NCBI GenBank assembly: GCA_936920195.1
Contig: CAKZHE010000097.1
Coordinates: 1 to 64,000 of the forward strand
Source: an uncultured cyanobacterium
Lineage (GTDB): Bacteria > Cyanobacteriota > Cyanobacteriia > Cyanobacteriales > FACHB-T130
Direction of reading: 5' to 3'
DNA length: 64,000 nucleotides
This document shows positions 4,169 to 23,069 of the stretch, piece by piece. The notes under the pieces were generated by a model, which did not search any database, had not been told where the DNA came from, and saw only the letters and a list, made by a program, of their open reading frames with translations. The position numbers and the translations under genes are program-made. How positions within the stretch are numbered: position 1 is the stretch's first letter; every line of letters starts with the position of its first letter.

Positions 4169-4453
4169 TTACGCCAAAACCCCAGAATCAAAAAGGCGAT
4201 TCTGGAGTAAATAGCCTTCTAGCTTCCATAATTGGTTGGCAGCGTCTTCTCTAGCAAATTTTCGGCCTATTTCTATGTCGAAATTTTTGGGGTCTATACA
4301 AGCCGCCCGTCCCAAAACGGTAAACCCAGAGGGCAGTTTGTAGCTAACTGCCAACTCTTTCTCCCAGAATGTACACTCCTGAGTTTCTGCCCGATCTAGC
4401 AAGTCGTCAATTTGTTCTTTTGTAACAGTGGTAATAGGTTCCATTGCAGACAA
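4169..4453 (-). CDS. Phage N4 Gp49 / Sf6 gene 66-family protein
   Basis: Matches the pattern of this small phage family: QIDDLLDRAETQECTFWEKEL, then LPSGFTVLGRAACIDPKNFD and IGRKFAREDAANQLWKLEGYLL. The biochemical function of the family is unknown; it occurs on lambdoid, N4-like and many other phages. It is transcribed divergently from the exonuclease gene downstream. Confidence 0.75.
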   Translation of the reverse strand: MSAMEPITTVTKEQIDDLLDRAETQECTFWEKELAVSYKLPSGFTVLGRAACIDPKNFDIEIGRKFAREDAANQLWKLEGYLLQNRLFDSGVLA

Positions 4454-4495
4454 TTAATGTGGGATAAAATAATTATATCAACAATTTTCAAAGAC

Positions 4496-5380
4496 ATGGG
4501 AAAGCTCTGCACACTTGAAAATAAAGACATCAAAAAATACGATTGGTGGGGCGGCAGCAACCCACCTCCGCCCCATCTGAAAACGAAAAAGCAGTTAGCG
4601 GATATGGGGCTAAAACCTGTATCTGCCGTGGGCGTTATTGAAGCCAGAAAATATGATTTACTTCTTTACGATCCTGAAAATCCACGCTCAGTTCGCCCCA
4701 GTAAAAAGCCGACTGAAGCGCAACTCAGAAATTTAGAGAAAGGCAGGCGCAAGCAAGCGTATAAAAACTGGTTTAGGGATGAAGGGTTTATTTACCGTGA
4801 CGAAAATGAGGCGATCGCGTGGGCAAGGGAATTCGTTGCCGATCCCGATAATCTTGTTCTGGATACCGAAACAACTGGGTTCACAGATCCACAAATAGTT
4901 GAAATTGCAATATTAAATCTTCAGGGTGAAATTCTGTTCCACTCGTTAGTCAAACCTGCCAAGGAAATTGAGCCTGGGGCAGAAGCTGTTCACGGGATTA
5001 GTAACGCCGAGGTTGCTGACAAGCCTACATTCGCCGATATCTCTCCGCAATTGACAGTATTATTGACTGATAAAAAGATCGCAACTTACAACGTGGGGTT
5101 CGATTTTAGGGCTTTGGAGTGTAGTAGGCAATCCGCAAACTTGCCCCAGCCAAAGTATGAAGATCAAGAATGGGAATGTGCCATGCTCTGGTATGCACAG
5201 TTTTATGGAGAACGCAGAGGTCGCCATGGATATCGCTGGCAGCGTTTACCTTCCGCTGGTCATCGGGCAGTGGCTGATTGTTTGGCGCTAATTGATTTGT
5301 TGCGGCAAATGGCGACTACTGAACCAAGGGATCTGGGGCAATTATTTGATCGGCATTGGGAGGAAATATGCAAGAGCTAA
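4496..5380 (+). CDS. DnaQ-like DEDDh 3'-5' exonuclease
   Basis: 294 residues. A basic N-terminal region (30-100) precedes a complete DEDDh domain: ExoI DTET (D123, E125), HGISN, ExoII NVGFDFR (D203) and ExoIII HRAVAD (H256, D261). Such enzymes degrade single strands from the 3' end in proofreading or recombination. A longer reading to 4412 would overlap the divergent gene at 4169-4453; 4496 or 4457 are the plausible starts. It may act with RecT, which lacks an adjacent nuclease. Confidence 0.85.
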   Translation: MGKLCTLENKDIKKYDWWGGSNPPPPHLKTKKQLADMGLKPVSAVGVIEARKYDLLLYDPENPRSVRPSKKPTEAQLRNLEKGRRKQAYKNWFRDEGFIYRDENEAIAWAREFVADPDNLVLDTETTGFTDPQIVEIAILNLQGEILFHSLVKPAKEIEPGAEAVHGISNAEVADKPTFADISPQLTVLLTDKKIATYNVGFDFRALECSRQSANLPQPKYEDQEWECAMLWYAQFYGERRGRHGYRWQRLPSAGHRAVADCLALIDLLRQMATTEPRDLGQLFDRHWEEICKS

Positions 5381-6509: not shown

Positions 6510-9017
6510 CTAAGCCTCTGACTTCAATGTTTTGACTTCGACCAGGGCATCGCCTACCCTGATTTTGCGCCGATCCGATATTTCTTCTAGTTGAGCTAAT
6601 GCCACTCTTAAATTGACGTTGACGGGGGATGACTCGGTATAAATGTCATCAGCAAGGCTGCTGATTCCGGTGACAACTTTGGCTAGTTGTGTTGCCAAAC
6701 TCTCAGCCTTTTTAACCATCTCGGCGATGGTAATTAGAGACTCAACTTTATAAACGCCTGCGGCCTCAGTAACTGTTGCCTGTGCGGACTCTGACAGCTT
6801 CGCCAGTAAAGCGGTTTCGGCGATCGCCTTGCTGTACCTTTCCAGATCCGGGTTGATTGGTTCGCTAGTGGCCTCAATCGGTGGTTTCCAATATTTGCAG
6901 TAACTTTCCGCAGCGCGATCGCTATCTAAAAACGTAAAGCTATGTACCCCGCACTGCCGTTCGCCAGCTTCCCCGCCCTCAAAACGATGGCAGTGTTGAC
7001 AGGTGAAGCAGCTTTGCTTCTCACTGAGGATCTGGGCGGCAACTTTAAAGGCAGCGTTTACGCTCTGCTCGTTCAAAGCGTGGCGCAAACCCGCCGCCTT
7101 TGCTCTGGCTGATTCCTCCCACTCTGCCGCCTTCGGCGATTCGCCCTCCTGCGCTTCCAACTTGTCCAGCAATTCAATGATTTTTTCACCCTTGGCGAAG
7201 GTGCGCTCGCCTACCCCCGCGATATCGGCTAGTCGTTGGCGCGTGTGAAGGGTTGGCAAATTTGCCAACCCTTGTCCCCCGGCGCTCATGTTCGCTTTGG
7301 CTTCTGCCTCAATAATTGAGCGCCAAGCTTTAGCTTCGCGGAGCTTTTGCTCATCATTCTTTTCCCGCCCTTTGTTGGCTTCTAGGAGCCGTTTTAGCTC
7401 TTGTTCTGGAGTGGCAAAGCGCACCCATTTTACTTCCAGGGACTTGAAGCGGCTATCGCCTTTTGCTGTCAATCTCTCAACGCATCGATGACAGGAGTTG
7501 CCGTCAACGATGTGCCTGGTCGTGATGCTAACCACGATGGGCTTAACCCAACCGCTTTGATCGATGGTTGCCTCAAGTTCAGTTAGATCCTCTTCTCCGT
7601 AGATCTGCTCATTCAGCGGGTGTCTTATGATCTCGTCAATATTCACAAACCGGGGCAAGTCTTCGTCTGGGGCAGTCTTCAGGGAGGAAAGATCGACTGT
7701 GCCATCGTCTTTCTGAGGCAATCCCCACCGCCGATTATTTTCTCGGACGATATCTGGATTAACTGCGCCAGATGGAAGCGATACCACAGCGCTAACGGAT
7801 TCCTGCTCTGACTTGGAAGTGGGTCCGTTATGCAGCGTTTCCACCAAATCTTCTAACAGATGCTCTCCCGCCTCCGTTAGCGAAAACCCTACTGCCCCAT
7901 CTGTTTGAATAAACTTAAGCTTCAGCAGTTGCTTAAACGCCACATCTGCTGCTAATTGCTCCCATCCTAAGTTCAGGGCGATCGCCTGTTTGCTGGCTTT
8001 GTTGTTGGCCTTGATCTCCTGGAGAATCAGGATCTGCTCCTCGGTTGATAAAATCGTTGAGATACTGAATTCGGGCGATTCCAACACTGGCAACTCTGGG
8101 GTCGAGGGCGTTGCCGACTGCGGCGCGGCGTTTTCTAATGACTCCATCTCCGCTAGGAACTCCGAGGCCGATCGCTTGTCCGCTGGGTCTGTCCACCCAA
8201 CGGGAATCCCGGAGCCACTCTCCAGGAATTCCGGGTTCGATACTTCGTTGGACGCGATCGCTCCCCTCTCCTGCAAATCTTGCTCTAATCTGTTCGTGCC
8301 AGGGGGTCCGCCTTTGCCACCCATCCGGGATAATGCTGTGGGCGATTGCAACAATAAGGAGCCGCTCTCGGCTCCAGGGCGCTCCAAAGTGGGCGCTGCC
8401 GATAGTCGTCCATTCTGCATCGTACCCGACGTAGAAGAGTTCTCTGAGAAGAAATTTGAAGTATTTGATCCGGTTTCCTGGACTGATGGGGCAGGTGAGG
8501 AGTCCTGGTACGTTCTCAATTGCCACGAATTTTGGCCTGATTTCTCCGATGATTCGGATGACAGCAGGGAAGCAGTCTCGACTGTCTTCGCCTCCGAGCC
8601 GTTTTCCGGCGATCGAGAATGGCTGGCATGGGGGAGAGAATCCGCAGACATCGTACTGTCCGGGCCTCCCCCTGAAGGTGCGGATATCTCCGTGAATTGG
8701 GACTCCGGGGTATCTGAGTCTGAGGATTGACTGACAATATTCGTCCCATTCAATGAGTTGGCATAACTCCCATCCGGCTCTAGTGGCGGCAAGTTCCCAT
8801 CCGGCTCCAACTCCACTGCATCCGGTGAGGATTCGCATATATCTATACCTAGATCGTTCTTGAGTTCGTATCTGGAGTAATAGGCGGTCTTGCCATTCTT
8901 GTCGCACCGAATTTGGAAGGGCGCTTTTTTCCTCCGGGCATCGGTTTTCAGCAATGTATATCCGGGCTTCAGTTCCGTACCGGGTTTTAGATCCGACTTG
9001 TTTATGGTTAGTGTCAT
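6510..9017 (-). CDS. ParB-like nuclease-domain protein, 835 aa, hosting a nested gene
   Basis: Domain order: a short N-terminal domain (1-60); a Ser/Pro/Gly/Glu-rich disordered stretch (about 60-320); a winged-helix-like region (320-395); a ParB N-terminal domain near 455-550 (FVNIDEIIRHPLNEQIYG, IVDGNSCHRCV); a ParB-type HTH near 580-620 (TRQRLADIAGVGERTFAK); a Cys cluster near 670-710 (CFTCQHCHRF...C...YCKYW); and a helical tail. It may bind DNA for partition or regulation. The disordered stretch coincides with the methyltransferase gene read in another frame on the same strand (7933-8838). This suggests the linker arose by overprinting. It follows the RHH gene by three bases. Confidence 0.85.
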   Translation of the reverse strand: MTLTINKSDLKPGTELKPGYTLLKTDARRKKAPFQIRCDKNGKTAYYSRYELKNDLGIDICESSPDAVELEPDGNLPPLEPDGSYANSLNGTNIVSQSSDSDTPESQFTEISAPSGGGPDSTMSADSLPHASHSRSPENGSEAKTVETASLLSSESSEKSGQNSWQLRTYQDSSPAPSVQETGSNTSNFFSENSSTSGTMQNGRLSAAPTLERPGAESGSLLLQSPTALSRMGGKGGPPGTNRLEQDLQERGAIASNEVSNPEFLESGSGIPVGWTDPADKRSASEFLAEMESLENAAPQSATPSTPELPVLESPEFSISTILSTEEQILILQEIKANNKASKQAIALNLGWEQLAADVAFKQLLKLKFIQTDGAVGFSLTEAGEHLLEDLVETLHNGPTSKSEQESVSAVVSLPSGAVNPDIVRENNRRWGLPQKDDGTVDLSSLKTAPDEDLPRFVNIDEIIRHPLNEQIYGEEDLTELEATIDQSGWVKPIVVSITTRHIVDGNSCHRCVERLTAKGDSRFKSLEVKWVRFATPEQELKRLLEANKGREKNDEQKLREAKAWRSIIEAEAKANMSAGGQGLANLPTLHTRQRLADIAGVGERTFAKGEKIIELLDKLEAQEGESPKAAEWEESARAKAAGLRHALNEQSVNAAFKVAAQILSEKQSCFTCQHCHRFEGGEAGERQCGVHSFTFLDSDRAAESYCKYWKPPIEATSEPINPDLERYSKAIAETALLAKLSESAQATVTEAAGVYKVESLITIAEMVKKAESLATQLAKVVTGISSLADDIYTESSPVNVNLRVALAQLEEISDRRKIRVGDALVEVKTLKSEA
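7248..7273. repeat. 26-bp palindrome, copy 2, inside the ParB-like gene
   Basis: AAGGGTTGGCA, AATT, TGCCAACCCTT. It is coding here (QGLANLPTL) and lies just before the HTH of the ParB-like protein. It has identical arms to the copies at 258 and 14198. Confidence 0.8.
7933..8838 (-). CDS. C5-cytosine DNA methyltransferase nested in the ParB-like gene
   Basis: 301 residues in a different frame of the same strand as the ParB-like gene and entirely inside it. All core motifs are present in order: I GCSGVGAGWE (6-15), IV GFSPPCQPFS with the catalytic Cys at 71, VI AIENVPG (106-112), VIII FGAPWSRERLLIV (151-163) and X AVGNALDP (240-247). The target-recognition part is short. The ATG at 8838 puts MRIL directly before motif I. 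The ribosome-binding site is weak, so translation may depend on that of ParB. It would transfer a methyl group from SAM to cytosine in a short DNA site; the specificity is unknown. No restriction enzyme is adjacent. Confidence 0.88.
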   Translation of the reverse strand: MRILTGCSGVGAGWELAATRAGWELCQLIEWDEYCQSILRLRYPGVPIHGDIRTFRGRPGQYDVCGFSPPCQPFSIAGKRLGGEDSRDCFPAVIRIIGEIRPKFVAIENVPGLLTCPISPGNRIKYFKFLLRELFYVGYDAEWTTIGSAHFGAPWSRERLLIVAIAHSIIPDGWQRRTPWHEQIRARFAGEGSDRVQRSIEPGIPGEWLRDSRWVDRPSGQAIGLGVPSGDGVIRKRRAAVGNALDPRVASVGIARIQYLNDFINRGADPDSPGDQGQQQSQQTGDRPELRMGAISSRCGV

Positions 9018-9020
9018 GGT

Positions 9021-9212
9021 TTAAACCGATTGCTTGGCTTGTTCTGCGTCTTGTTCTGATTCCGTTCCCAGATATTTCTTGATTGCATGGAGAACCGTTT
9101 TGGTTTTGTCCCGATCGTTGCGAGCCATGTCTCTCTCGATCGCCTGACTTATAGAAATGGGCATCCAAAGCGTCATCTTTACTTGTCCAGATCTTTTAGG
9201 TCTTTTTGCCAT
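9021..9212 (-). CDS. Ribbon-helix-helix DNA-binding protein, 63 aa
   Basis: Short CopG/Arc-like protein: KMTLWMPISISQAIERDMARN gives the strand and first helix, TKTVLHAIKKYLG the second. It lies three bases upstream of the ParB-like gene, the arrangement of an RHH regulator or partition partner. It probably autoregulates; the dyad at 9240-9278 just upstream is a natural candidate operator. Confidence 0.75.
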   Translation of the reverse strand: MAKRPKRSGQVKMTLWMPISISQAIERDMARNDRDKTKTVLHAIKKYLGTESEQDAEQAKQSV

Positions 9213-16417: not shown

Positions 16418-17419
16418 ATGTCACAAACAACGATTGAATGGACTGATAAAACTTGGAACCCTGTTACGGGTTGTACCAAGGTTAGCGAGGGGTGCGCCCG
16501 GTGTTATGCCGAAACAATTGCTAACAGATTCTGGGGCGATCGCAAATTCTCCGATGTGCAGTTTCACGAAGATCGGTTAAAGGCTCCGGCAACTTGGAAA
16601 ACACCCTGCAAAGTGTTTGTCAATTCAATGTCGGATCTATTTCACGAATCAGTTACGTTTAAGCAAATTGATCAAATATTTGCAGTAATGGCGACGACAA
16701 ATCGTCACACTTTTCAGGTGCTGACAAAGCGACCTGAAAGGATGCTGGAATATTTTACTGATTACCTGCCCGATGTTGGTGGCTTGACTGTTTTGCACAA
16801 AGGCTCTGCAAGAGTAGCCGTAGATCTTTCTCGTTCTTTTCCGCTGCCTAATGTTTGGTTGGGAGTGTCGGTGGAAAATCAGAAAGCCGCTGATGAACGC
16901 ATTCCGCTACTACTAAGAATCCCGGCCACTGTTAGATTCTTGAGTTGTGAGCCATTGCTAGAGGATATCGATATTAAAGATTATTTGGGAGAATTCTGGT
17001 ACTGCCCAGACTGCGAGTACGACTGGAAAGAAGCCGGAGCAATGGCAAGTGGAAAGAAAAGACTCTGCGGAATTTGTGAAGCGCGGATTATCAAGGGAGA
17101 AACTGGGATTCATTGGGTGATTATCGGCGGTGAATCTGGGGATAAAGCTCGCCGTTGCTATTTGGACTGGGTGTGATCGCTAGTCCGCCAATGCAGAGAT
17201 GCGGGTGTTTCCCCCTTCGTAAAGCAACTTGGCTCTAACCCAGTTGCTGCAAGCCCCTACGTTAAGGGTGCGGGTTCCAGCGATTACCTTTATGTATTCA
17301 AGGTACGAGATAAGAAGGTACGCGATCACAAGGGCGGCGATATCACGGAATTCCCAGAAGATTTACAGATCAGAGAATTTCCGCAAGTTGCAATTAGCGA
17401 GGAGGCGGTATGTCTGTAG
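16418..17419 (+). pseudogene. DUF5131 (phage Gp37/Gp68) radical-SAM-like protein with in-frame TGA
   Basis: The first 252 codons give the family signature: EWTDKTWNPVTGCTKVSEGC with Cys at 19, 26 and 29 (Cx6Cx2C), then FVNSMSDLFHESV, VLTKRPERM, LGVSVENQ and IIGGESGDKARR. A TGA at 17174-17176 follows LDWV. The frame then continues without another stop: SLVRQCRDAGVSPFVKQLG, DYLYVFKVRDKK, HKGGDITEFPEDLQIREFP, to TAG at 17419. Relatives normally have Arg at the TGA position, so CGA to TGA is likely. It is either a nonsense mutant or read through. It overlaps the next gene by ten bases. Confidence 0.8.
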
Positions 17420-17883
17420 CTCAACTCTATCTTCCTTTCGCCCCTTATTTGGTTGTCCGCGATGGCGATCCACTGGCAGGCGCGATCGCCAATCGGCACT
17501 ACTCAAGACTGGAGCGCGGCAATACAGATCAACTTAGGTTTTGCCGCCCTGGGAAAAGATTAATACTGCTTCAGCCAGAAGGGTCCTGGTTATTCGTTTG
17601 GGTGCTTCAAAAATTTAGAAGGGATGGGCAAGTTGGTGCTGAATGCGTTTTGTTCCGCAACGAAGCGCCTAATAAGTTTTTAAGTTCAGAAATCGTTCTA
17701 TTGGCAGAAAAAGTGTGGAACGATTTGCATGGGTTTTGCCGAAAATTCACCTACGTTAATCCAAGACTTGTTCGCTCTAAAAATCCTGGTTGTTGCTTTC
17801 AAAAAGCTGGCTGGACAAAGAGCGATCGCCGAAGCAGTCGGGGGTTGATCTTGCTGTCAAAGGAGGTAGTCGCCAATGTTTAA
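17410..17883 (+). CDS. GNAT/Mom-like protein (possible DNA base modification)
   Basis: 157 residues. The pattern ANRHYSR, then GSWLFVWVLQKF, ECVLFRNE, LSSEIVLLAEKVWND, FTYVNPRLVRSKNPGCCFQKAGW is reminiscent of the GNAT-fold Mom family of phage Mu, which modifies adenine in DNA against restriction. I am not certain of this family. The neighbours are two adenine methyltransferases, which fits a DNA-modification cluster. GAGG precedes the ATG. Confidence 0.5.
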   Translation: MSVAQLYLPFAPYLVVRDGDPLAGAIANRHYSRLERGNTDQLRFCRPGKRLILLQPEGSWLFVWVLQKFRRDGQVGAECVLFRNEAPNKFLSSEIVLLAEKVWNDLHGFCRKFTYVNPRLVRSKNPGCCFQKAGWTKSDRRSSRGLILLSKEVVANV

Positions 17884-18724
17884 TCGCCCACTTCTTCGCT
17901 ACCTCGGAGGGAAATACTTGTTAAGCCCTTGGATAATTTTACACTTCCCTCTACACCAAATCTATTGCGAACCCTTCGCGGGTGGCGCGAGTGTTTTACT
18001 GAATAAGGCTCCAAGCCCCATTGAAATTTACAACGATTTGGACGGACGGCTCAACAACTTCTTTAGAGTATTGCGCGATCGCGCTGACGAACTATTGGAG
18101 AAACTTGAGTTAACACCATATTCTCGCGCTGAATATGATTTGGCTCTTTCCCCCTCCGAAGATCCTGTTGAAGATGCCCGACGACTTTATGTTCTTAGTT
18201 GGCAGTGCAGGGGCGGCGGTTATGTCGCGAACGGGGGCAGGGGATGGAGATATCAAAACAAGGATTGGGCGGGGAATGATGTTGTCAGGAATTGGCATCG
18301 ATATAGCGATCTAAGGTTATTTGCTGATCGGTTATTGAACGTCCAGATAGAGCAAGATTGTGCATTCAAAGTGATTAGTCGATATGACAGTCCAAAAACC
18401 CTTTTCTATCTCGATCCCACTTATCTGCACGAAACTAGATCTGCAAATCACAGGTGGGAATATTTCCACGAAATGACCAAGAACGATCACCAAAAACTGG
18501 CTGAATTGCTCAACTCAATTCAAGGGATGGCGATAATTAGCCATTACCCCTGCGAACTTTACGATCGCCTCTACAAAGATTGGCGGTGTATCCAAAAAGA
18601 AGTACGAACTCAAGGGCGCACAACAGCAACTGAATGCCTCTGGATAAATCCAGCCTGCGATCGCGCTTTAAATAGTCTCTTTTCGCTGCCATTGTTTGCA
18701 GGAAAACATGAGGAGGTTATTTGA
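17876..18724 (+). CDS. D12-class N6-adenine DNA methyltransferase with DPTY motif
   Basis: 282 residues. RYLGGKYLLSPWI (motif X) and YCEPFAGGASVLL (motif I, SAM binding) are normal. The catalytic motif IV reads FYLDPTYLHETR (180-183) where the family has DPPY; the second Pro is replaced by Thr. Activity is therefore uncertain. AAGGAGG precedes the ATG, which overlaps the upstream gene by eight bases. A second D12 enzyme lies 120 bases downstream. Confidence 0.85.
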   Translation: MFNRPLLRYLGGKYLLSPWIILHFPLHQIYCEPFAGGASVLLNKAPSPIEIYNDLDGRLNNFFRVLRDRADELLEKLELTPYSRAEYDLALSPSEDPVEDARRLYVLSWQCRGGGYVANGGRGWRYQNKDWAGNDVVRNWHRYSDLRLFADRLLNVQIEQDCAFKVISRYDSPKTLFYLDPTYLHETRSANHRWEYFHEMTKNDHQKLAELLNSIQGMAIISHYPCELYDRLYKDWRCIQKEVRTQGRTTATECLWINPACDRALNSLFSLPLFAGKHEEVI

Positions 18725-18921
18725 CCGAGGAATATTGCAACTGCAAAGGCGCTTTGATTTTCGCCAACCCGAACAGCCCTAAAATTGATTATTTAGTTAG
18801 ATGCTCCGTCTGCGGCAAAATTTACCCAATTTTTAACCCCAATTATGACAGCCATCGCAGAGAAAGAACAAGAACCCGCATTGCAAGATCCGCACCCTTT
18901 CCTAAAGTGGGCGGGCGGTAA
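18721..18921 (+). CDS. Small Cys-rich peptide, TTG start
   Basis: 66 residues from a TTG preceded by GAGGAGG. CNCKGALIF and VRCSVCGKIYPIF suggest a small zinc ribbon. The last third overlaps the next methyltransferase gene in another frame and has low-complexity Arg/Thr content, so only the first 45 residues look convincing. Confidence 0.4.
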   Translation: MTEEYCNCKGALIFANPNSPKIDYLVRCSVCGKIYPIFNPNYDSHRRERTRTRIARSAPFPKVGGR

Positions 18922-19726
18922 GAATGGCTTACTTAGACAATACCAGCCCTACTTCCCCAAAGAATTCAGAACTTACTTTGAACCCTTCTTAGGCGGTGGT
19001 GCAGTATTTTTTCATCTACTACCAGAAAAAGCGTTTCTTTCTGACATTAATTTTGAACTTGTCAACGCTTATCAAGTAGCGGTCTTTGATCTTGATAAAT
19101 TGATATCACTCTTAACAGAACATCAGAGCAACCATTCTCCCGAATATTACTCCCAAATCAGAGGGTGCAACCCTGGCGATCTAATCGAGAAAGCAGCGCG
19201 ATTCATTTACCTAAACAAAACTTGTTTCAATGGAACGCACAGGGTTAACAAAAAAGGAGAGTTTAATACCCCAATTGGGCGCGATAGCGCTAGCGCGCTC
19301 GCAGAGCTTCGCAATGGTCATTCTCAATATGTTTGCGATGTTGATGGGTTGAAATCTGCTTCCTTGGCTTTAAGGAAATCTGCATATCTTGATACCAGTG
19401 ATTTTACCCTAGTGGAAAGCACGGCAGAAAAAGGCGATTTTGTCTACTTTGACCCGCCGTATCACCCAGTTAGCGAAACGGCGAAATTTACCAGTTACTC
19501 AGCGAGCGGATTCGATAAATGCGACCAAATCGCTTTAGCCGCTGTGTTTAAGTCCCTTGCCGAACGCAAGGTGAAAGTCATGCTCTCTAACTCTGATTGT
19601 CCGTTTATTAGGGAGTTGTACAAAGGATTTGAAATCGTGTCAATAAACGCCGCTAGATCGATCAACTCTGATGGGCAGAAACGTGGCAAGGTTGGTGAGA
19701 TTTTAGTTGTCGCAAATTGTAATTAA
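18845..19726 (+). CDS. Dam-like D12-class N6-adenine DNA methyltransferase
   Basis: 293 residues. PFLKWAGGKNGLL (motif X), YFEPFLGGGAVFFHLLP (motif I) and YFDPPYHPVS with a canonical DPPY at 203-206 are all present, as are FIYLNKTCFNG and TKFTSYSASGF-type segments. By family it methylates adenine, probably in GATC-like sites. Residues about 146-157 (RDSASALAELRN) are encoded by the dispersed repeat at 19281-19312, inserted in frame after NTPIG in a loop between motifs. Confidence 0.9.
   Translation: MTAIAEKEQEPALQDPHPFLKWAGGKNGLLRQYQPYFPKEFRTYFEPFLGGGAVFFHLLPEKAFLSDINFELVNAYQVAVFDLDKLISLLTEHQSNHSPEYYSQIRGCNPGDLIEKAARFIYLNKTCFNGTHRVNKKGEFNTPIGRDSASALAELRNGHSQYVCDVDGLKSASLALRKSAYLDTSDFTLVESTAEKGDFVYFDPPYHPVSETAKFTSYSASGFDKCDQIALAAVFKSLAERKVKVMLSNSDCPFIRELYKGFEIVSINAARSINSDGQKRGKVGEILVVANCN
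19281..19312. repeat. 32-bp small dispersed repeat, copy C
   Basis: Identical to copy A at 6114-6145. It is inserted in frame within the Dam-like gene, in a part of the protein that varies in the family, which may explain why it is tolerated. Confidence 0.85.
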
Positions 19727-19737
19727 TGGAGAATTTA

Positions 19738-20190
19738 ATGAAAGCGATTACACTTTGGCAGCCTTGGGCATCTTTGATAGCCCAAGGGTTTAAAAAAATT
19801 GAGACGCGATCTTGGGGGACGAATTACCGTGGAGCGCTACTGATTCATGCTGCAAAACGACCAATAAAAGCAGAGGACATAGATTTGTATGTCCGAATAA
19901 CCAATGGTCAGGCTCTTGATCTGCCCCTTGGTAAAATTGTCGCGGCTACTAAATTGTCTAATTGTGTTGAAATGTCGCAAGAATTTATTTTCAAGCAATC
20001 CGATTTGGAAATAAGGTGCGGAGACTGGAGAGAAGGGCGGTGGGCATGGGAACTGTCAGAGATCGTTCAAGTAGATATTGGTATTCCGGTCAAGGGTAAG
20101 CAAGGTTTGTGGGTTCCGAACCAGGGCTGGAAAGATGAATATTCGTATTTGATGAAGACAAATAAGTGTGTGGTGGAGAAAAGGATTTGA
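19738..20190 (+). CDS. ASCH-domain protein
   Basis: 150 residues. AITLWQPWASLIAQGFKKIETRSW, then YRGALLIHAAKR, then LGKIVAATKLSNCVE and GRWAWELSEI are the hallmarks of the ASCH fold, a PUA-like domain that binds RNA or acts on modified nucleosides. GGAG six bases before the ATG at 19738 favours this start. It begins 11 bases after the Dam-like gene and its end overlaps the next frame. Confidence 0.85.
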   Translation: MKAITLWQPWASLIAQGFKKIETRSWGTNYRGALLIHAAKRPIKAEDIDLYVRITNGQALDLPLGKIVAATKLSNCVEMSQEFIFKQSDLEIRCGDWREGRWAWELSEIVQVDIGIPVKGKQGLWVPNQGWKDEYSYLMKTNKCVVEKRI

Positions 20191-21521: not shown

Positions 21522-22598
21522 CTATTTGCCTTTCATCAACTCCCAAGCCTGCCTACTATCTATCTCATTAAGCCATTTCAGGTAATGTTTGCAATGTGTA
21601 CCAATGGAATGCCCCATCCACTGAGCGACAATTGCCGGACTACATCCCGCGATCGCACACCTAATTGCGTAGCGATCGCGCAATCCGTAGGGAGTGAATT
21701 TTATTTTAGGGTGGTCGTAAAAATACGAGGAGATTTTTGCTCCTAAGTCTTTATTCAAAGTCCCTGGCTTATTTTTAAAGTTAGGGAAAATAACTTTTTC
21801 TAGCTCCCAATCTTTACACCAGTTGGTCGGCACGGGCAGAACTAATCGTTTGCCAGTTTTGGTATTTTCCTTTACTCTGAGAGTGTCGTTGGCAAGCTCG
21901 GTGGTGTCTAGGTGGAATATTTCGTGATCTCTAATCCCAAAAGTTGCTAATATTCCAAAAACCCACCGCCAAGCCGGATTAGCAATCGCTTCTCTGGCCT
22001 CTAAAATTTCCTCATCGCTGGGGATATGCCGATCTCCCTTGGCCTTATACCCCTTCCCCAACGGCCTTAAATTGCACTCCAGCCCAGCAAAATTAGCAAG
22101 ACATTGGTAAGCGGTGGTCAAATTTACTCGTTTCCGCGTCTCAGCTTGGCTTTGAGAAAGGATCGTTGCTCGCAACACAGATTCCGAGAGCGGACTGGAT
22201 GAAGGGAGGAAATTAAAAGGAGTACGGTAATTTTCTTGCCAAGTAGACTGTTTGCCTAGGTCACTCCGATTGCGACTGCTCCAGTAATCCTCCTCAAATT
22301 TGTCCAACCAGTCCCCTATCGTTTCTGGTGGCTTTTGCTTGCCCTTGAGAAATAAACTCCAGTCAAACCGCTCCCTAAGTAGCAAACCCTCAATTTCCAT
22401 CGCCTTGCCCTTCGCGATCGCCAGTCCCTCCGGAGAAAATGGCGCACCAGTGCTAATCTCGTATTGTTTGGGGCTATCGCCATCATCCGGCTTTGGTGGC
22501 AAGGTTGCCCGTAGGTAAAGTCTGCCTCCTTTTTGTCTAATCGTCACTCTATCCAAAGCATCGTTGGCTTTCTGTAACGCAGATTCCAGCTTCCCCAT
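21522..22598 (-). CDS. Tyrosine-family site-specific integrase
   Basis: 358 residues. The N-terminal arm and core-binding parts are followed by a catalytic domain: Arg I in FGIRDHE (R223), a Lys in the beta-hairpin (KTGK, about 247-250), LRDR box (R307), H330 in MGHS and the nucleophile Y339 in KHYLKW. The first His of the usual HxxR box is Tyr (YGLR). It catalyses integration and excision of the element. Its 5' end faces tRNA-Ser 103 bases away, the usual layout at an attachment site. Confidence 0.9.
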   Translation of the reverse strand: MGKLESALQKANDALDRVTIRQKGGRLYLRATLPPKPDDGDSPKQYEISTGAPFSPEGLAIAKGKAMEIEGLLLRERFDWSLFLKGKQKPPETIGDWLDKFEEDYWSSRNRSDLGKQSTWQENYRTPFNFLPSSSPLSESVLRATILSQSQAETRKRVNLTTAYQCLANFAGLECNLRPLGKGYKAKGDRHIPSDEEILEAREAIANPAWRWVFGILATFGIRDHEIFHLDTTELANDTLRVKENTKTGKRLVLPVPTNWCKDWELEKVIFPNFKNKPGTLNKDLGAKISSYFYDHPKIKFTPYGLRDRYAIRCAIAGCSPAIVAQWMGHSIGTHCKHYLKWLNEIDSRQAWELMKGK

Positions 22599-22700
22599 CT
22601 CCCTAAACCTTCCCTAAAAAAGGGTAGTAATTTGCTATAACTTGTTACTACAAATTACTGCTTTCACGAGGGAAAGTAAAGGCTAGAACCTTGAATTGAA

Positions 22701-22789
22701 CGGAGAGGCAGGGATTTGAACCCTGGAGGAGGCAAAAACCCCCTAACAGATTAGCAATCTGCCGCTTTCGACCACTCAGCCACCTCTCC
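22701..22789 (-). tRNA. tRNA-Ser(GCU)
   Basis: Read on the minus strand, GGAGAGG pairs with CCTCTCC. The D-arm GGCTGAGTGG, anticodon loop TTGCTAA (GCT), a long serine-type variable arm and T-loop GGTTCAAATCC are all present. The 3' end lies toward the integrase, so it is the probable integration target of the element. CCA is not encoded. Confidence 0.95.
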
Positions 22790-23069
22790 AGTGACATAGA
22801 TTTTTATGATAGCAGGTTTTTGGCTCAGAAGCTAGAAATTAAAATTTTTATTTTCGGTTCGGTGCAGTACGGAAAACCGTACTTTGATAAGACACCTTAG
22901 AAAGCGTTAGGGCGCAGAAGTATTTCCAATAACAGATGCTTATTAGCAGGAAATCTGTTGATACTGAAAATCATTACTTGATTAAAAACTGTTTGTGTTG
23001 ACGAGAAGCCAGTGCAAAGTTAATCCTTTGCGGAATTCTGGCTGTTGCTATCCTGTACCTAGAAAAATT

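Follow-up and report, generated by a model that had tools for sequence, protein, structure and literature searches.

Can two overlapping reading frames in the same DNA encode both halves of one DNA-methylating enzyme? The question is raised by a locus on contig C97 of a 5.7-Mb genome with its closest matches among cyanobacteria, analysed here within a stretch of 64,000 nucleotides (the window), where the ORF of a C5-cytosine methyltransferase sits inside a longer ORF on the same strand. The original prediction took this for overprinting, in which a complete methyltransferase gene had become the disordered linker of a ParB-like fusion protein. Our analysis indicates that the two frames most likely specify both halves of a single enzyme.

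Two nested reading frames

Both ORFs were verified at their coordinates (Table 1). The methyltransferase ORF (P0001, alpha) lies wholly inside the container ORF (P0002, the beta fusion), which occupies the +1 frame of the same minus strand; the full nesting had thus been predicted with the correct coordinates and strand. The container's ATG at 9017 lies 3 nt past the stop of a short upstream ORF, and the two probably belong to the same operon. No strong Shine-Dalgarno sequence was found at the beta ATG (9017) or at the alpha ATG (8838). Well over a hundred genes from viruses and cyanobacteria show this overlap, and relatives of the locus have the same methyltransferase overlain by a long second ORF.

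Table 1. Features of the nested locus and its surroundings, in window coordinates.
Feature	Coordinates	Strand	Remarks
Beta-fusion ORF (container, P0002)	6510..9017	-	835 aa; +1 frame relative to alpha
Alpha ORF (P0001)	7933..8838	-	C5-cytosine methyltransferase, 301 aa, motifs I-VIII + X
Upstream ORF	9021..9212	-	63 aa; ribbon-helix-helix-like by eye; no Pfam match
Alpha motif IV	8614..8637	-	SPPCQPFS, catalytic Cys71
Alpha motif VI	8503..8517	-	ENVPG
Alpha motif VIII	8359..8373	-	SRERL
Alpha motif X	8089..8118	-	VGNALDPRVA
Beta core	8055..8630	-	Homologous to +1-frame proteins of cyanobacterial and viral C5-methyltransferase genes
Motif IX equivalent in beta	8184..8249	-	NEVSNPEFLESGSGIPVGWTDP
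Winged-helix-like segment of beta fusion, weak	7839..8027	-	HTH_45 E 0.019, under Pfam cut-off
ParB-like domain of beta fusion	7335..7649	-	phrog_620 E 3.7e-8; standalone homologues in relatives
Cys cluster	6888..7010	-	CxxCxxC...C...C; also in standalone ParB-like homologues L024, L026, L031
RecT	1805-2608
Exonuclease	4412-5380
DUF5131	16418-17176
Two D12 adenine methyltransferases	17876-19726
ASCH protein	19726-20190
Integrase-like protein, weak match	21522-22598		Beside tRNA-Ser
tRNA-Ser	22700-22790

The methyltransferase frame lacks motif IX

Alpha matches PF00145 (E 6.3e-31) and, over residues 1-267, phrog_363 (E 1.4e-49). The C5-methyltransferase motifs named in the original prediction are all present and intact in a single chain: I (GCSGVGAG), IV (SPPCQPFS), VI (ENVPG), VIII (SRER) and X (VGNALDP). 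The enzyme had also been called complete, and here the prediction fails: the match to Pfam PF00145 and TIGR00675 stops at motif VIII, near residue 170, and the alpha frame has neither motif IX, which a profile places in the +1 frame, nor a recognition domain of the usual kind. Alpha thus does not combine motif IX and a target-recognition domain (TRD) in the same chain as a monomeric enzyme does. Against M.HhaI it aligns well as far as motif VIII and no further, apart from a weakly matching stretch at motif X. The alpha domain ends at about 8050, and the tail beyond this point is probably passive read-through.

Motif IX lies in the overlapping frame

Motif IX was located by profiles; simple regular expressions had missed many variants. 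Among viral genes, the profile puts it in the +1 frame in 162 of 171 cases, and among cyanobacterial genes in 25 of 27; of the 33 genes from loci found with the single-chain phage enzyme L198, 24 have it in frame 0. In L198 itself, LLPTP repeats, LNPELPEWMMGWPAGW and GNGVVPQQ share one frame with motifs I-VIII, and a viral beta profile matches exactly the TRD/motif IX part of this protein (57.9 bits). The motif IX of M.HhaI, partly visible in the alignment (HPRECARVMGYPDSY), resembles the NPxWVEWLMGFPxGW sequence of the +1 frame. Another single-chain relative, L302, is predicted to fold like M.HhaI: its AlphaFold2 model (pTM 0.72) superposes over the whole length, 1-353 on chain 12-319, with 234 residues aligned, a Z-score of 22.5 and an rmsd of 3.6. 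In the window, motif IX is divergent, with ESGSGIP against EWLMGFP in viruses; it scores 37.7 bits (E 4e-11) with a leave-one-out profile and weakly, 9.5 bits (E 0.03), with the viral motif IX profile.

Four viral genes (L049, L054, L064 and L110) have an alpha that goes no further than motif VIII, with IX and X both in the +1 ORF, so that no enzyme there can be complete without the +1 product. We regard these as natural AquI-type splits that arose within the overlapping family. All 30 viral betas compared with phrog_1008 ('DNA methyltransferase') match it; the beta of the window did not reach E 0.1 against this profile, and a search of the window's own genome with phrog_1008 gave no match, but neither did the controls, which leaves this negative uninformative. 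The beta profile had no match among PDB sequences. An AlphaFold2 model of a viral beta core alone was poor (pLDDT 59, pTM 0.29) and so lends beta no direct structural support, as might be expected of a partner-dependent subunit, though this is no proof of one.

Domains of the container protein

The beta core scores 180.9 bits (E 7.2e-55) against a profile of cyanobacterial betas from which the window was left out, for which it is the sole significant match in the window, and 34.2 bits (E 6.7e-10) against a viral-only profile. These matches contradict the view of the overlap as just a disordered linker, which we reject; across the family, conservation in the recognition-domain region is higher for the +1 frame than for the methyltransferase frame. 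The claim of an 835-residue ParB-like protein holds for its length, the phrog_620 match and the Cys cluster, whereas PF02195 (ParB_N, E 0.031) and HTH_45 stay under the Pfam cut-offs. The ParB-like part also occurs in standalone ORFs without overlap (L024, L026 and L031), which makes the window's protein look like a fusion of two modules rather than one protein interrupted by a linker. A genome of the window's family encodes, at L037:106-2898 (+), a canonical single-chain C5-methyltransferase with a ParB-like domain in frame, which supports a functional link between both activities.

At the cyanobacterial loci, the container runs past alpha on both sides and its domains vary. Fusion partners of beta include Dam (L138, L139 and L143), KilA-N (L143), ASCH (L138, under the Pfam cut-off) and other ParB-like domains (L013, and L162 by eye, without a Pfam match). 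A further, unnamed C-terminal domain with no Pfam match and the consensus GCLYxYLENKKLKxGxIxSYPRVxGxRDxxNxxHWRWGxxWEE... recurs in the beta fusions of L129, L130, L131, L137, L139 and L152.

A probable two-subunit enzyme and its alternatives

Very probably, the overlapping genes specify a single C5-cytosine DNA methyltransferase made of two subunits, the alpha gene lying inside that of beta. Frame 0 (8838-7933) would specify alpha, responsible for SAM binding and catalysis through motifs I-VIII and X, and the +1 frame would specify beta, which would supply motif IX and probably also the target-recognition segment missing from alpha. Both would be translated, beta from the ATG at 9017 and alpha from the internal ATG at 8838; each would be inactive singly, and they would be expected to assemble as in M.EcoHK31I and M.AquI. 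Assembly and methylation activity of the pair are putative. In this cyanobacterial element, beta would be extended by an N-terminal segment, the weak winged helix, the ParB-like domain and the Cys cluster, and with the domains gained by beta, alpha comes to lie entirely within the beta gene.

The domains fused to beta, ParB-like ones among them, hint at tethering or targeting, and the ParB-like parts may direct or tether the enzyme on DNA. It is conceivable, though we lean against it, that the family represents a natural targeted-methylation machine, in which a beta fused to ParB-like, KilA-N or Dam domains steers methylation to particular sites and dual coding locks alpha and beta together so that they are inherited as a unit. 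If true, nature would here have an equivalent of the split methyltransferase-zinc finger fusions made by engineering (PMC3439449). As to initiation, 54 of 123 viral +1 ORFs have their first ATG at position -5 or +4 relative to the start of alpha, and ATGs this close, within 5 nt, suggest coupled initiation. An internal ATG at the H-D-D site had first seemed to be conserved; it holds in a minority only (22/114) and was rejected.

Were the two proteins unrelated products of overprinting, alpha would be self-sufficient and the +1 protein would have another, ParB-related job, with no joint enzyme. We consider this improbable: the container does have DNA-binding domains of its own and both ORFs can be read independently, but motif IX is missing from frame 0, the +1 segment matches the TRD/motif IX part that single-chain relatives have in frame, and motif X itself sits in the +1 ORF of four viral genes. 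From the overprinting first proposed, dual coding survives, and the complete enzyme and the linker do not. The products are most likely subunits of one enzyme, not unrelated proteins. We give still less credence to programmed frameshifting, which would join motifs I-VIII of alpha to the +1 recognition segment and yield a second single-chain enzyme beside or instead of the subunits; single-chain relatives show such a fusion to be workable as an architecture, but separate initiation suffices, given a container start upstream of alpha and, in the 54 viral ORFs above, an ATG no more than 5 nt from where alpha begins.

Selection on both frames

Stop codons were counted from motif IV to motif X in 153 non-redundant genes (<80% mutual identity), with the expectation taken from 300 synonymous shuffles inside each gene. 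Over these genes, which share ancestry and so are not independent trials (the effective sample is smaller), the +1 frame held 52 stops against 660.8 expected, an approximately 12-fold depletion, and 136 of the 153 had none. The +2 frame held 1732 against 1684.6 expected, with zero stops in no gene. In the cyanobacterial subset (20 genes), a single +1 stop was observed against 48.2 expected. The +1 depletion was absent in the outside-clade genes L166, L169, L171 and L175 and in single-chain L198. We therefore reject chance openness of the +1 frame for the family, on the count of 52 stops against 661, and likewise a codon-bias artefact, the depletion being found in +1 only and not in +2 or the controls. 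Taken alone, the open +1 frame of the window gene is unremarkable (0.85 stops expected, p 0.36).

Substitution rates, compared in 62 independent pairs, point the same way: the third-position rate of alpha relative to the mean of positions 1 and 2 is 3.2-3.3 outside the core overlap and 1.28 inside. Along the gene, frame 0 is the better conserved at motifs I, IV and X and near them; over the last 50 codons before motif X, the +1 frame is equally or more conserved. In Cyanobacteria, identity over the same 50 codons is, in most bins, 0.55-0.66 for +1 vs 0.37-0.56 for frame 0. Part of the +1-frame similarity stems from alpha homology on shared DNA. At the family level, these patterns of conservation indicate that both frames are under purifying selection. 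The dual coding of the original prediction withstands both comparisons, since the homologues do not conserve one frame while the other carries stops, and the third-position excess falls inside the overlap. An untranslated +1 ORF, open through codon bias or GC content and conserved as the shadow of alpha, is the least credible reading of all: the p value of the window alone and the 57% GC of the overlap would allow it, but a 12-fold depletion in +1 and neither in +2 nor in the controls L198, L171 and L175, the third-position constraint, and the Dam, KilA-N, ASCH and ParB-like domains held in the same +1 ORF by homologous containers all stand against it.

Spread of the overlap

The family surfaced only through alpha alignments and relatives; an IMG/VR scan with P0001 alone and an INPHARED scan with P0002 gave no matches, and whole-container alignments, which appeared misaligned, were left out. 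The +1 frame is open over the second half of the gene in C5-methyltransferases of Paenibacillus, Sulfitobacter, Synechococcus, Microbacterium and Mycobacterium phages, most of these frames ending in an NPxWVEWLMGFPxGWT-like sequence. It is also open in most of 80 IMG/VR contigs, whose loci were picked solely by methyltransferase-frame similarity, and on plasmids of the archaeon Methanomethylovorans, of Lacticaseibacillus, Bacteroides and Picosynechococcus. Public annotation usually records alpha alone, with beta lost or truncated; on pAQ5, the end of the +1 ORF has been given an annotation of its own, as a small hypothetical protein. We found no earlier description of widespread nesting in the literature covered, preprints and most subscription papers lying outside that coverage.

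Individual relatives vary in both frames. The viral beta at L080:1807-3276 (+) contains a LAGLIDADG_1 domain (E 3e-5), an apparent insertion with both frames still open, comparable to the HNH insertion of ShiLan (PMC11855218). The betas at L063:2658-3989 and L050:2051-3169 (+) have an extra HWFRxDxxxxYPSVENW-like segment, which by eye resembles a domain of other DNA methyltransferases. In an apparently decayed copy, L007 (G064:C160), alpha has PPS for PPC and LNT for ENV and the +1 frame has a stop, so that decay apparently hits both frames together. In L282 (pAQ5, Picosynechococcus PCC 7002), L008, L009, L012 and L015, alpha has PCTGTS for PCQ and EQP or ENP for ENV with +1 open; in these, alpha may work by a changed chemistry or have lost its activity, with beta retained.

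Genomic context and significance

Positions 1805-22790 of the window probably form an integrative element or prophage (Table 1), and self-modification against host restriction is the conventional guess for its role. Discussions of long overlapping genes on one strand usually treat them as rare cases with unrelated protein products. Here, one gene family, which occurs in phages, in cyanobacteria and on plasmids of bacteria and of an archaeon, appears to encode both subunits of the same enzyme in two frames. Its single-chain and differently split relatives allow comparison, which makes the joint evolution of a split enzyme and a dual-coded gene testable. It can also be tested whether cloned 'orphan' phage methyltransferases seem inactive because codon optimisation removed beta.

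Comparison with known systems

M.AquI is a cyanobacterial two-subunit C5-methyltransferase with the target CYCGRG, and M.EcoHK31I targets YGGCCR. The small subunit of EcoHK31I is said, after Lee, Kam and Shaw in 1995, to be encoded in another frame within the gene of the large subunit. The larger subunit of M.EcoHK31I carries motifs I-VIII and X, with the predicted TRD placed there too, and the smaller carries only motif IX, while M.AquI is divided into I-VIII and IX-X (PMC3404938). The window pair shows the EcoHK31I division, with I-VIII and X in one chain and IX in the other, a likeness in the layout of motifs as described. It differs in the recognition segment, which in the window probably belongs to beta, in the reversed nesting, with alpha enclosed by the beta gene, and in the size of beta, a large fusion that includes ParB-like parts. 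M.AquI is likewise a split enzyme, and L049, L054, L064 and L110 share its division; the window, unlike M.AquI, retains motif X in alpha.

Viral betas and the window's alpha match phrog_1008 and phrog_363, respectively; PHROGs calls both 'DNA methyltransferase' and, as far as shown, records no overlap between them. A second reading frame also runs within a mycobacteriophage DNA methylase gene, in the ShiLan domain; this differs in that the third frame there holds an inserted homing HNH endonuclease, which occurs sporadically and is no subunit of the enzyme (PMC11855218). A nested pair like that of the window is found in the Paenibacillus phages Lily (gp62/gp63) and Diva (gp49/gp50), where RefSeq names both members 'DNA methyltransferase' and notes the inner one as 'internal gene', the record giving no mechanism. 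In contrast to the window, beta is short in these phages, lies inside alpha and has no fused domains.
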